IMG/VR virus record: IMGVR_UViG_3300009537_000115
Location: 1 to 30,336 of that record
Origin: a virus
Direction: 5' to 3' (one strand)
DNA length: 30,336 bases
Below are positions 2,731-27,122 of the stretch, piece after piece; positions within the stretch are counted from its first letter, which is position 1; each line of letters begins with the position of its first letter. A model generated the notes under the pieces. It did not search any database, was not told where the DNA came from, and was given only the letters and a program-made list of their open reading frames with translations. Made by a program: the position numbers and the translations under genes.

Positions 2731-5616
2731 TTAGAACTGGGCGCGAAGGCTTTGCATAATCTCTGGATTGGTGAGTCCCTCATCCCAAAGTTCTTTCAAG
2801 AATGCCTTTCGGCCAGACTCAGACAGTGGGCGAATCACGTCTGCGATATAGGCCACACGTTCCTGGCCTTGTAAGGATTCGATTTGTTCCTTCGCTTTCA
2901 TGCGTCGAGAGGCCTCTTTGAGTTTGGCATGGACCTCTGGGGCTTGTTCGTAGAGGTTCTTCAGCACGGCACTGCGTTCCTCTTCTCCCATCTTACGGAT
3001 ATTCAGAATAAAATCCTCAGGATTGTTTTTAATTTTATTCAGCTTTTTCTTATTCAAGACCCCTTGATATTTCTCAATCTCCTCTGGTTTAAACTCTCCA
3101 ATCTGGAGTGGACTGACCAAGTTTAAAAACCGAAGCGGGCGGCGGCTGGGTTCACCCGTCCCGGTGCGATAGGGTTCCACTTGGAAACTGAGCCCAGGAA
3201 TACCCTTCTTTAAGTTATCAACAATCGCTTCCAATGACAGTTCTCGTTTGCCTTTCCGATAAATCGGGTCAAGACCTTGAGTCACCCAGCGTTGAAGCGA
3301 GGAGAGCGGGACGACCTGAGAGGGAAAGCCTGTAATCACTTTCTGGATGGCCCCTTCTTCACCGCGGAGAGCATCGACAAAATCACCCACTCCTTGAACA
3401 TACGATTGGTCGGAAAAGAACTCAGCGATGCCAGACAGCACCTTGGTGGTTTTCTCAAGTTGCGTATCGGTAACTGATTCAGGATTATCCTCGATGTAAT
3501 ATTTCACAGCCGCGGCCATCGCCATCGGATACGCGAGAGGGCCCAGTTTAGAGAAACTAATCCATTTATCACCTACCCGCACTGAGTACGGCTGCATCCC
3601 CGCATCAAAAAAGGCTTGTCGCTGTGAGGGATCAGTCGGAGTGGCCCAGGTCAATCGGTCATTAAAGGCCAGGATCGACGCGCCACCAAAGACCGTAGTG
3701 CCTACTAAGGCACGAGACAACTGTTCAATCTTGCGTGTACTCCCAGGTAGGGTCGCAAACCCCACCGGAGAGAATTCAATCCCTTGTTTGAAAATATTCA
3801 TCGGGGTTTGCACAAACGGGACGAACCACTTCATAGGACCCTTTCGCATTTTATAAAGTCCGCTGGTCATATCATCAATATAGGATAAGAGCCTCCCCTG
3901 TCCGGTCGCATTCTGCGGATCAAGGGCTTTCCGAAACACAAACTCTTGCGCAATCTTCTCCGCTTCATCTGCAATCTCTGTGAGATTGGGTGTCTTCCCT
4001 TGCTTGAGTGCCCGAAGCATCAATGCTTCTTTTTCCCCTCCACGAATCAGCGTGCGAAAGAAGACATCCCCCGCTTCCAGCGCGCGAGGAATGCGTTGAA
4101 ACGGCTTGAGAAATCTATTCCCTGTGGGGATATGCGCCACATCGGGACGCGCTAAGATCGTGTTGCCTTTATAAGCTTTCAACGCCCCAGTCCATGCCTC
4201 ATCGAGTGAGTTATAGAGTCCTTTATAATATGCCGGCACTTCAGAGGCATAGTATTGCTGTTCCTTGCCACTCAACTTGGAATAGACCTTATCGACCCCT
4301 CCCGAATACAGTTTGGTGGCGGGCCGTAAAACCGTAGTCTGTAACACATTGGAGAAGGCATTCACAATATGGGTCTTCGGAGACGATAAGAGGTTGATAT
4401 AGCGGAACTCATCAATGAGTTCTCCATAGGACGGTTTTACAAATGTGCGATAAAACTTGGTCACCTGTTCCGCATCGGTAAAGTCTACCCCTTTAGCTGC
4501 TTTCAAAATCTCATCAGTCTGGTCATCGAGGCGTGTGGCCAGGTCTTCAATCATCTTCAGTTTAAACCCAGCCGCCCCAGGCTCTGCCGTCGTTTGGAGG
4601 GCTTGGAGTTGTCGCCCAAGAGCCGTTTTTTCTGCCCGCACATTCTTCAGTAAGGCGACAAAATCATCTGTGACTTCTCCGCCCTCCGCCATCTTCGCCA
4701 GCTCTTGACGAGTCTTGAGCAGCGTGGCTTCTCGTCTCAGCGTATCAGCACGGGTCGTGGTTTTCCGAAGAATATCTGAGGTCTTCGCCGCCTGTAAGAC
4801 TTCATCCTTCGTGAGCGGTTTGCCTCGTAAAGCTTCCAGTTCTGGCTTGATATCGTCGATGACTTGGGTCAATTTCTTTTCCGCTTTCGGGGTCAGCTTG
4901 AGCCCTTTGATCGAGATGTCTTTTGTTTCTTTCGGAGCTGTGGAGACAAACTTCCCGCTGGATTTTTCAATTGCCCCCTTCACCACCTTCCGCTTTCCTC
5001 CGCCATAGAGTCCCATGATAAAGAGCGCCCCTTGTTCGGCCGTGGTGGCACGACGCTCAGCTCGTTGAGCCGCATCGTCCAGCGCATCTTGCGTCAGGGG
5101 CTCGCCAGACTTCTGGAGTTTCTCAATCTCGCGTTGTCGTTCGTTCTGTAGTTTTTCAAAGGTTTTCGGTGTCACTTCAAAGGGCCCCAACTTCTGGCCT
5201 TTCGTGAGAAAATCAATGGCTGCTGGAAACGCTTGGCCTTTCGGGGTAAAGGAGGGGCGAGCGGGTGCCCCTTTCCGAAACCGATTAAAGGCTTCCCCAA
5301 TACGCTGAGGAATCGAAAGTTTTCTGGTGCGTTCCATTTCAGCTTGGGTGCGGATTTCGGCTTGTGAAGGTTGCAAGAGCGACGGAGGACTGGCTTGTGG
5401 GGTGACCAGGCGTTGTCCAGAAAACTGTGGGGGGACCGCCGCAGAAGGTATCGCCGCTTTAAACGCTAACGGGACAGGGGACGATGCAGAACGAGCACGG
5501 TTCAAGATGTCTCGAATCGAGGCCCGCGCCACCCCACCTGCCCCACGACGGGTACGTGCCACGGGTTGCGCCTTCTCTCGTGCACGCTTGACAATGTCTC
5601 CAATAGAAATAGGCAT
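2731..5616 (-). CDS. Large internal virion / ejection protein (961 aa)
   Basis: Start ATG 5616 (MPISIGDIVKRAREKAQ) lies 4 nt after the preceding stop. The first ~150 residues are basic and Pro/Ala-rich. Residues ~150-380 are charged and helical, probably coiled coil. The region ~390-800 resembles a conserved segment of large phage internal proteins: LINLLSSPKTHIVNAFSN-like and WFVPFVQTPMNIFKQGIEFSP motifs, a hydrophobic stretch around ALVGTTVFGGASILAF, then GDKWISFSKLGPLAYPMAM. These proteins are thought to be packed in the capsid and ejected to help DNA cross the envelope; this is known of the class and inferred here. No lysozyme motif is evident. It is followed by the convergent plus-strand island. 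Confidence 0.65.
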   Translation of the reverse strand: MPISIGDIVKRAREKAQPVARTRRGAGGVARASIRDILNRARSASSPVPLAFKAAIPSAAVPPQFSGQRLVTPQASPPSLLQPSQAEIRTQAEMERTRKLSIPQRIGEAFNRFRKGAPARPSFTPKGQAFPAAIDFLTKGQKLGPFEVTPKTFEKLQNERQREIEKLQKSGEPLTQDALDDAAQRAERRATTAEQGALFIMGLYGGGKRKVVKGAIEKSSGKFVSTAPKETKDISIKGLKLTPKAEKKLTQVIDDIKPELEALRGKPLTKDEVLQAAKTSDILRKTTTRADTLRREATLLKTRQELAKMAEGGEVTDDFVALLKNVRAEKTALGRQLQALQTTAEPGAAGFKLKMIEDLATRLDDQTDEILKAAKGVDFTDAEQVTKFYRTFVKPSYGELIDEFRYINLLSSPKTHIVNAFSNVLQTTVLRPATKLYSGGVDKVYSKLSGKEQQYYASEVPAYYKGLYNSLDEAWTGALKAYKGNTILARPDVAHIPTGNRFLKPFQRIPRALEAGDVFFRTLIRGGEKEALMLRALKQGKTPNLTEIADEAEKIAQEFVFRKALDPQNATGQGRLLSYIDDMTSGLYKMRKGPMKWFVPFVQTPMNIFKQGIEFSPVGFATLPGSTRKIEQLSRALVGTTVFGGASILAFNDRLTWATPTDPSQRQAFFDAGMQPYSVRVGDKWISFSKLGPLAYPMAMAAAVKYYIEDNPESVTDTQLEKTTKVLSGIAEFFSDQSYVQGVGDFVDALRGEEGAIQKVITGFPSQVVPLSSLQRWVTQGLDPIYRKGKRELSLEAIVDNLKKGIPGLSFQVEPYRTGTGEPSRRPLRFLNLVSPLQIGEFKPEEIEKYQGVLNKKKLNKIKNNPEDFILNIRKMGEEERSAVLKNLYEQAPEVHAKLKEASRRMKAKEQIESLQGQERVAYIADVIRPLSESGRKAFLKELWDEGLTNPEIMQSLRAQF

Positions 5617-5620
5617 AGAT

Positions 5621-6427
5621 TTACAAGTCCCATGGGTCTGATGGCTCTTCATCCGAGCCCCCGATTGATGATCCTGACCCGCTACTACTAAAAGTCCCAC
5701 CAAGAAGTTCAATCTCGCGTTTCAAATCCGCTTCACTCAAGTCTGGCGCCACCGCTTTCAAATAGTTCAAGAACGATTTCGATTCATTCAGGAGTTGCGT
5801 GCCAGAGAGTGACCCAAAGTCTGGTGGCTCTTCATAGGATTTAACTTGAATGCCAACTTGCTCAAGGCCTGCTCGTTGCAATTCTTCCTTACTCTTGGGG
5901 ACATACTGTCCCCCAGAGACTTGATCAGCAAAGGCCATCGCATGACGTTGTCCGGCATCCGTAAGGGTACTACTCGCCCGTGAGAGTGCGGTATCGAGAT
6001 CAAGACCTTCGTCGAAGACATACCGTGTCATCAGCTTGAACGCTTGTTCCGCCGCAGGACGACTCTGCTTTGAAAGACTGGTCAGATAGCGAGGATCAGG
6101 TGGCTGAAGTTCGGGTACAGAAGGCTGTGGTGACACCTTGAACTGCTCACGAATCTCGGGGCGCTGGACCGCTTGCTGAAGGATGCGAGGCGCGTCTTGA
6201 GGCACAGACTGGAGGGTCGGAAATCTGGCGGGTGGCACAAACGGGGTTCTGGCTTCGGCAGAGGCCCGTCCCTGACGCAAGAGATCCGCGAGAACGCCAG
6301 GATTGGCTGGGCCTGGTTTACCGAGCGAGACGCGGCGACCGGTGGCCCCAGGTGCAATCCCAAGTGACTCAAGTGGTCCACGTTTGGCTTCTTGAAAAAG
6401 TTGCTGAAGAAACGCAGGAATGGGCAT
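5621..6427 (-). CDS. Putative internal/structural virion protein (268 aa)
   Basis: The protein starts MPIPAFLQQLFQEAKRGPLE and has a Pro/Ala/Arg-rich N-terminal half (~20-110), a helical middle (~115-180) and a Ser/Gly/Asp-rich acidic tail (SSSGSGSSIGGSDEEPSDPW). It lies 3 bp after the poly-Gly protein and 4 bp before the 961-aa internal protein, so it is probably a partner in the same internal-core assembly. The MPIP and MPIS starts of this gene and the next are alike. No enzyme motif or membrane segment is visible. I do not recognise a named family. Confidence 0.55.
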   Translation of the reverse strand: MPIPAFLQQLFQEAKRGPLESLGIAPGATGRRVSLGKPGPANPGVLADLLRQGRASAEARTPFVPPARFPTLQSVPQDAPRILQQAVQRPEIREQFKVSPQPSVPELQPPDPRYLTSLSKQSRPAAEQAFKLMTRYVFDEGLDLDTALSRASSTLTDAGQRHAMAFADQVSGGQYVPKSKEELQRAGLEQVGIQVKSYEEPPDFGSLSGTQLLNESKSFLNYLKAVAPDLSEADLKREIELLGGTFSSSGSGSSIGGSDEEPSDPWDL

Positions 6428-24644: not shown

Positions 24645-24992
24645 TCACCCTCCGTACCGCTGAAAGGCCGGCGCAACATTGATCCCCTTCTCGACTTTCC
24701 CCGTGTACCAGTCCACGTACTCCTTCGAGACGGGACTATAGGCAAAGCTCCACCTGGAGGAGGGACACATCCGATCGACATTCCCTGTGGCCTTGATGAC
24801 GTGCTGTGTATTACACCGTGAGCATTTCTGGTCAGATTTTGGCAAATTCTGTAATACAGGGTCCTCGTGTAATACAGAGGGTTTCACGAGGTCCCGGATG
24901 GCATCAGATCGACTTTCGAGCTTCCTGTCGCGCACGAGGACATCAAGGGCGTTCATTTCTTCGTCCGTGAGTCTCACGGTAATGGTGGGCAT
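24645..24992 (-). CDS. Ribbon-helix-helix regulator with cysteine-containing C-terminal domain (115 aa)
   Basis: Residues 1-38 are a canonical RHH (Arc/MetJ/CopG) DNA-binding unit: the strand MPTITVRLTDEEMNALDVLV followed by a second helix with SRSDAIRDLV. Residues 39-115 add C57-x2-C60 and C76 (QKCSRCNTQ, RMCPSSRWSFAYSPVSKEYV), a possible partial metal site. RHH proteins bind DNA as dimers on short palindromes. Two copies of an 11-bp near-palindrome lie directly upstream, one abutting the ATG, and three more are inside the gene, so autoregulation is likely. A stop codon lies two codons upstream in frame, so the ATG is secure. No SD sequence. A TTGACA at 25030-25025 could be the -35 element. 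No toxin gene neighbours it. Confidence 0.8.
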   Translation of the reverse strand: MPTITVRLTDEEMNALDVLVRDRKLESRSDAIRDLVKPSVLHEDPVLQNLPKSDQKCSRCNTQHVIKATGNVDRMCPSSRWSFAYSPVSKEYVDWYTGKVEKGINVAPAFQRYGG

Positions 24993-26236: not shown

Positions 26237-26265
26237 ATTGTCGCCGTGGAGACCCAGAAGGTCAA
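26237..26265 (-). promoter_or_regulatory. Sigma70-type promoter for the packaging/virion unit
   Basis: On the minus strand TTGACC (26265-26260), a 17-nt spacer and GACAAT (26242-26237) match -35 and -10 elements. Transcription would begin near 26230 and read the zinc ribbon, acidic protein, terS and onward. The spacer lacks the ATGA-NN-ATG motif of the plus-strand promoters. Confidence 0.45.
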
Positions 26266-26294
26266 GGAATTCACTGGAGTTTTTTTGGAATCTG

Positions 26295-26303
26295 TGCTAG
26301 GCT
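26295..26303 (+). promoter_or_regulatory. Possible extended -10 promoter upstream of the initiator gene
   Basis: TGCTAGGCT has a TGn extension and the same -10 hexamer (TAGGCT) as the promoter at 2196. A recognisable -35 is lacking (TGGAGT at 26275-26280, 17 nt away). If used, the transcript would start near 26310 and carry an ~84-nt leader including the interlocked repeats. Confidence 0.3.
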
Positions 26304-26337
26304 CGAGACAACATGGTGAAACATCCCCCGTTATAAA

Positions 26338-26389
26338 AGAACCGCTAACTTAAGGGGGGCTACGGGACTTAGCGGTTCTGGCCCCCCTT
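26338..26389 (+). promoter_or_regulatory. Two interlocked inverted repeats in the initiator leader
   Basis: Stem 1 pairs AGAACCGCTAA (26338-26348) with TTAGCGGTTCT (26369-26379), 11 perfect bp. Stem 2 pairs AAGGGGGGC (26352-26360, inside the loop of stem 1) with GCCCCCCTT (26381-26389), 9 perfect bp. The arms interlock in pseudoknot order. The 1-nt link between the two 3' arms makes both full stems together unlikely, so they are probably alternatives. Stem 2 is followed by TTTGTT and ends 4 nt before the ATG at 26394. It could therefore act as a terminator or block ribosome access. A third element, CCCCC at 26325-26329, could also pair with the G-run. Confidence 0.65.
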
Positions 26390-26393
26390 TGTT

Positions 26394-27122
26394 ATGCAAG
26401 ATGGCTATATCAAACTCCATCGCAAATCGCTGACCAGCTCAGCCTTCAAGAACCCAGCCACCTGGATGGTCTGGTCCTGGTGTTTACTGAAAGCGTGTCA
26501 CGAAGAGCAACAGTTCCCGTGGAATGGCTCAGACATCACCCTGAAGCCAGGCCAGTTTATCACGGGACATCACAAGGCCTTACAAGAACTACCCACTCTC
26601 ACACTTCAGACCCTCAGAACAGCCTGGGGGTACCTAAAATCAACAAACAGAATAACAATCAAATCAACGAATAGATTTAGCATCGTAACGGTCTTAAACT
26701 GGAAAGAGTACCAAGTACCAAACAAGCCTACTAACAAACCACTAACAAACCAGCAACAAACCACTAACAAACCACTAACAACATACAAGAATGATAAGAA
26801 GGTAAAGAATGATAAGAAAGAGATACCTAAAGGTATCAGTCGATCCAAGATCGACGAGGTTGTCTCCTGGTATGAAGCATGCTTTGACACCACGCTTCGA
26901 AGTCTCAGTAAAACTCGGAAGGCCAAGCTCCACGCTCGACTCACCACCTTTTCCATATCAGACATCAAGCAGGCCATTACCAATTTTTCCGCGGCGCCGT
27001 TTTACCGCGGCGAGAACGACCGTGGGTGGTGCGCTGACCTGGATTTTATCATTCGCTCGGATGAACAGATCGAGAAAGGGCTCAATCTCAAACCGCATTC
27101 CAATGTGCTACATATTACCTAA
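26394..27122 (+). CDS. DnaD-like phage replication initiator (242 aa)
   Basis: The N-terminal ~105 residues are a winged-helix replisome-organiser domain: MQDGYIKLHRKSLTSSAFKN, WMVWSWCLLKACHEEQQFPW, ITLKPGQFITGHHKALQELP, TLRTAWGYLKSTNRITIKST and FSIVTVLNWKEYQ. This is a well-known pattern of phage primosome initiators. A Lys/Asn/Thr/Gln linker follows (~106-140), encoded by the iteron region. The C-terminal domain ~145-235 (SRSKIDEVVSWYEACFDTTL, ITNFSAAPFYRGENDRGWCA, DLDFIIRSDEQIEKGL) matches the conserved C-terminal segment of these proteins, which recruits replication partners. It is the first gene of the plus-strand unit. No helicase or primase is visible in the window. Confidence 0.72.
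   Translation: MQDGYIKLHRKSLTSSAFKNPATWMVWSWCLLKACHEEQQFPWNGSDITLKPGQFITGHHKALQELPTLTLQTLRTAWGYLKSTNRITIKSTNRFSIVTVLNWKEYQVPNKPTNKPLTNQQQTTNKPLTTYKNDKKVKNDKKEIPKGISRSKIDEVVSWYEACFDTTLRSLSKTRKAKLHARLTTFSISDIKQAITNFSAAPFYRGENDRGWCADLDFIIRSDEQIEKGLNLKPHSNVLHIT
26730..26784 (+). repeat. Five tandem 11-bp iterons (candidate replication origin)
   Basis: Contiguous 11-bp units based on ACTAACAAACC occupy 26730-26740, 26741-26751, 26752-26762 (AGCAACAAACC), 26763-26773 and 26774-26784 (ACTAACAACAT). Three are identical. The unit is not a multiple of 3, so the repeat is not a codon-repeat artefact. An 11-bp period places sites on one face of the helix, like initiator-binding iterons. It lies inside the initiator's linker. 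Confidence 0.75.
26787..26818 (+). repeat. A-rich 14-bp direct repeat beside the iterons
   Basis: AAGAATGATAAGAA occurs at 26787-26800 and 26805-26818, with an 18-bp period, directly after the iterons. The strand is nearly all A and G. It is a good candidate DNA-unwinding element; it also encodes the duplicated KNDKK in the protein. Confidence 0.65.
26822..26854. repeat. Two adjacent short inverted repeats next to the A-rich element
   Basis: GATACCT-AA-AGGTATC (26822-26837) and TCGATC-CAA-GATCGA (26840-26854) are perfect inverted repeats separated by 2 bp. They complete a cluster of iterons, A-rich repeat and dyads that resembles a phage origin. Confidence 0.55.

Follow-up and report, generated by a model that had tools for sequence, protein, structure and literature searches.

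Two long stems are interlocked directly in front of the start codon of a phage replication gene, and the question raised by this locus is whether they form a regulatory leader in the messenger RNA, act as a site in the DNA, or stand there by chance. The coordinates of the features discussed are collected in Table 1.

Table 1. Features of the divergent region and the replication gene, in window coordinates.
Feature	Coordinates	Strand	Remarks
Divergent intergenic region, leftward late / rightward early genes	26239..26393		up to 155 bases
Candidate -10 box TATAAA	26332..26337	+	no recognisable -35; predicted +1 at 26344
S1 5' arm AGAACCGCTAA	26338..26348	+	
Extended S2 hairpin	26344..26397	+	minimum-free-energy fold, 22 bp, encloses start codon; z -4.4
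TAAC	26346..26349	+	sole plus-strand copy in divergent region; just 5' of S2
S2 5' arm AAGGGGGGC	26352..26360	+	within S1 loop
S1 3' arm TTAGCGGTTCT	26369..26379	+	
S2 3' arm GCCCCCCTT	26381..26389	+	4 nt from ATG
DnaD-like phage helicase loader / replication initiator	26394..27122	+	without Shine-Dalgarno
Tandem 11-mer AACAAACCACT	26721..26781	+	5.5 copies, inside replication gene

Genome setting and the interlocked stems

The window, by which we mean the whole stretch of DNA analysed, is a linear virus record of 30,336 bases. Genes for terminase, portal, and an SU10-type capsid protein lie to the left of the divergent region and are all oriented leftwards, and rightward orientation starts at 26394; the divergent region shrinks to a start at 26275 if the leftward open reading frame uses its first GTG. 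A ribbon-helix-helix regulator with a cysteine-containing C-terminal region is encoded leftwards at 24645-24992, and is a candidate binder of the divergent region. The same genome also codes for a 993-residue protein (2731-5712, leftwards) with partial-length kinship to T7-like internal virion or core proteins, its relatives being found in cyanophages and Desulfovibrio phage ProddE.

The first rightward gene encodes a DnaD-like helicase loader. Its product matches PHROG 2514 (E 2e-29) in an alignment that runs from residue 1, and good support for the ATG at 26394 comes from homologous proteins, which share the same N-terminal position (MQDGYIKLHRK here, and MNTGYIKLYRK, MSYGWVKLHRQ, MTGWIKLHRK, and METGWIKLHRK in homologues). 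The tandem 11-mers within the gene sit in a protein linker that is repetitive in homologues as well, and may be origin iterons of the sort present in other phage initiator genes.

The stems are as the sequence-only reading described them, with exact coordinates: S1 has 11 perfect base pairs and the G/C-rich S2 has nine, the arms follow one another in the interlocked order S1-S2-S1'-S2', and S2 ends in front of a TGTT that leads into the ATG, completing a short T run (TTTGTT, 26388-26393). Its claim that the full stems are probably incompatible also holds, because the single nucleotide (26380) that links S1' to S2' is too short to cross an 11-bp helix. We have rejected a full H-type pseudoknot on this same geometry, the folding model used being one that cannot represent pseudoknots. 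An attC-like recombination site was also considered and set aside; a core-like GTTATGC is present, with no other sign of integron cassettes.

Folding, start signals and transcript start

The minimum-free-energy fold of the leader is an extension of S2 on both sides, which the sequence-only reading did not include, into a hairpin with three stems: an outer GCTAAC/GTTA(T)GC, S2 itself, and an inner CGGGACT/GGTTCTG containing G-U pairs. The segment 26338-26400 has a minimum free energy of -30.6 kcal/mol, which none of 200 shuffles equalled (z -3.8), and the replication start is the most structured of the 33 start regions in the phage, the next one being weaker by 5 kcal/mol. Over positions -20 to +3 of the replication gene the probability of pairing is 0.89, although that of the start codon is only 0.64. 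Within the window as a whole, 26341-26400 ranks 13 of 12112 among 60-nt segments, and others fold equally well. The hairpin segment 26344-26397 folds at -29.1 kcal/mol as plus-strand RNA versus -19.8 kcal/mol as minus-strand RNA, a gap that 2.6% of segments match or exceed, and a role in plus-strand RNA is therefore mildly favoured over one in DNA. A known riboswitch was rejected, as Rfam covariance models gave no match in the window at the gathering threshold and, with E allowed to rise to 5, none at the leader.

The two folds are far from balanced. When S1 is forced to form, the best fold reaches -22.2 kcal/mol, compared with -32.0 kcal/mol for the extended S2 hairpin, about 10 kcal/mol worse, and the share of S1 at equilibrium is approximately zero. 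In a scan of transcript lengths the probability of S1 is 0.65-0.97 with the RNA ending at 26379-26384, that of S2 is at least 0.6 from 26386 on, and that of S1 is about zero past 26386. The scan thus passes from an early S1 to a more stable S2 that covers the start, in a model of equilibria that requires the RNA to begin at or before 26338.

Shine-Dalgarno sequences are nearly absent from this phage. The 20 bases preceding 33 curated starts include GGAG, AGGA, AAGG, and GGGG zero times and GAGG once. In their place, 14 of the 33 starts (1878, 2254, 6427, 7723, 12429, 14193, 15405, 18664, 19884, 20862, 24609, 27135, 28196, and 28726) have TAAC, usually within TAACC or TAACT, at -12 to -16, most often -15, where 0.9 are expected (P 1e-13); among the 32 starts of an automatic gene set, 11 do (P 1.7e-12). 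None of about 90 other phage loci has comparable enrichment, and literature searches for the motif as a start signal returned no match. A sigma-70 -10 box is an unlikely identity for TAAC, with C at position 4 in all 14 cases, a weak T at position 6, and no conserved -35. By its position the motif looks like a non-Shine-Dalgarno initiation signal, and if it is one, it would be a sequence-specific signal in a system without Shine-Dalgarno sites; a genome-wide search of such systems reported no conserved sequence motif (PMC3121790). The replication gene is among the starts without TAAC at -12 to -16, and the one plus-strand copy in the divergent region pairs in both folds, its TAA in S1 and the whole motif in the outer stem of the extended hairpin.

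The position of the transcript start is the main uncertainty for a reading of the leader as RNA. A sigma-70 scan of the plus strand of the region found no promoter at 9/12 or better. The +1 predicted from the candidate -10 box is also where the extended hairpin begins; an RNA starting there would miss most of the S1 5' arm, and one starting at 26345 or later could not form S1. With a +1 at 26344, S1 would therefore be active solely as DNA.

Readings of the stem pair

The reading that we tentatively favour, while holding it at somewhat short of even, is that the modelled fold belongs to the 5' leader of the replication-gene mRNA and restrains translation of that gene. One long hairpin would bury the region from -20 to +3, the ATG in part, and so may keep synthesis of the helicase loader low. 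During transcription S1 would form first and leave the ATG briefly free until S2 displaces it, and a protein, the ribosome, or polymerase pausing might prolong S1; S1 would otherwise be a transient fold or a dyad in the DNA. Genes without a Shine-Dalgarno sequence generally lack structure at their starts (PMC3121790), and a hairpin in this position would thus be expected to reduce initiation. The leader sequence is known from a single genome. Control of DnaD- and O-type phage replication initiators is mostly thought to act at the promoter, and if the reading is true, commitment to replicate would have a post-transcriptional brake as well, in the form of a leader that folds over the start codon.

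The sequence-only reading had proposed a two-state leader acting as an attenuator or a translational switch. What stands of this is the exclusiveness of the stems and a mild preference for plus-strand RNA; the energies do not support a switch between two balanced states, and with S1 near zero at equilibrium any switching would depend on kinetic control or on some stabilising factor. Between its two mechanisms, translational occlusion fits better than attenuation because S2 seems a poor terminator, with a 20-nt apical region and a weak tail. Attenuation, in which S2 and TTTGTT form an intrinsic terminator and the first-formed S1 an antiterminator, is accordingly quite improbable. The order of the arms, by which S1 is complete before S2, would suit it, as would the G/C-richness of S2 with its flanking A/T tract and T-rich tail, but termination would then occur right on the start codon, S1 is outcompeted at equilibrium, and S2 was not flagged by a terminator scan, which allows loops of 3-8 only.

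A rather unlikely alternative, to which we give weight because the predicted +1 would leave S1 out of the RNA, is that S1 is a DNA operator for a phage repressor, an 11-bp inverted repeat overlapping the putative -10/+1, with S2 either a part of the operator or a 5'-terminal RNA hairpin starting exactly at +1. The arms of S1 are perfect Watson-Crick complements at a spacing of 31 bp, roughly three turns of the helix, TATAAA lies directly before them in a divergent control region, and the ribbon-helix-helix regulator gene (24645-24992) is nearby; however, the window contains no other copy of an S1 arm at up to one mismatch, the 20-bp gap between the arms is long for one dimer, and a strand asymmetry in folding is unexpected for a DNA site. 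It is unlikely that the pair is without function, with S2 arising from a chance match of G6 to C6 and S1 from a commonplace 11-bp repeat. Either stem by itself is ordinary for a window of this size, since a shuffled window contains on average 5.8 stems of 9 bp or longer and 0.29 of 11 bp or longer, and genes of the window contain further stems of 11-12 bp; the pair is, moreover, one finding picked among many. S1 and S2 are the sole interlocked pair in the window (both stems at least 9 bp, span up to 80), and dinucleotide-shuffled windows contain such a pair in 5 of 400 cases and, in a separate run, 23 of 1800 (1.3%). Against chance, a pair that includes a stem of at least 11 bp was found in only one of the 1800, and when S2 was kept fixed in 40000 shuffles, its loop paired with its 5' flank over at least 11 bp in 8 of them. 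It is the combination that is unusual, lying as it does in a short divergent region with its end at a start codon, and chance does not readily account for it.

Very improbable, in our estimate, is that the phage starts its genes with a TAAC signal in place of a Shine-Dalgarno sequence and that the leader is a switch for this signal, with S1 hiding TAAC and a looped-out S2 presenting it. The arrangement is attractive in that TAAC, 44 nt upstream, would be brought to about 6 nt plus the width of a helix from the ATG, where 8-12 nt is usual, and its support is confined to this spacing.

Relatives and known systems

Neither relatives of the leader nor close relatives of the phage were found in IMG/VR, GTDB genomes, or INPHARED, where the IMG/VR queries were DnaD, TerL, portal, a further structural protein, and the major capsid protein, the GTDB queries were DnaD and the capsid protein, and a DNA pattern covering both arms of S1 was used as well. 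The sole relatives returned by these searches are capsid relatives at 28-39%, several of whose phages have clear Shine-Dalgarno sites, and a search of the records of capsid relatives (L002-L010) and of the L011 stretch found no relative of the replication protein. Alignment gathered 80 relatives of the replication protein, and the leaders of 30 were checked. None of the 30 shares S1 and S2, and about 28 have no comparable leader, most being unstructured and many having a Shine-Dalgarno sequence.

The closest relative of the replication protein (L016, 48% over 125 aa) is preceded by a very stable RNA with a three-way junction (approximately 3302-3391, rightwards; z -6.1), which closes about 10 nt before the gene's ATG; this start has no Shine-Dalgarno sequence in a phage that otherwise shows such sites. 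The L016 leader is unlike that of the window in sequence, matches no Rfam family at the gathering score, and has no relatives that we found; its region also has a T run, with promoter-like sequence upstream. We note separately that in L089 a 13-bp hairpin at about 5944-5995 holds the Shine-Dalgarno sequence of a DnaD-like gene (z only -1.5). Strong leaders ahead of this replication gene thus occur, but are rare and have no common sequence. In our analysis the L016 leader, strong, unrelated, and before a start without a Shine-Dalgarno sequence, is counted as a point that would favour a brake on translation, and as a second such case it renders the idea testable.

The window's leader can be set beside several known systems. 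It resembles attenuator leaders in that its stems exclude each other and the second of them is G/C-rich with Ts after it, but differs in its weak T tract, in a stem that ends at the ATG, in having the 'terminator' as its ground state, and in the absence of any recognised leader peptide or ligand site. Interlocking stems also lie upstream of the replication initiator in the repZ leader of IncI and IncB plasmids, where a pseudoknot forms and activates, whereas in the window's leader the full pseudoknot is sterically excluded. T4 gene 38 is an example of a nonlinear ribosome-binding site, and a hairpin between a putative initiation signal (the TAAC at 26346-26349) and the ATG could similarly bring the two together, although here the predicted fold pairs TAAC itself, whose role is putative, with the ATG region. 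The MS2 maturation-gene leader and the hok and aapA3 mRNAs are metastable leader structures (PMC6733600 and works cited there), and the likeness is that of an early transcriptional hairpin replaced by a stabler fold that closes the start region. The differences are that this is a DNA phage, with no Shine-Dalgarno sequence to sequester, a hairpin of only 54 nt, no antisense RNA seen, and kinetics that are only modelled. On the modelled folds, the leader may work in the manner of this metastable kind, of which it is a candidate member.
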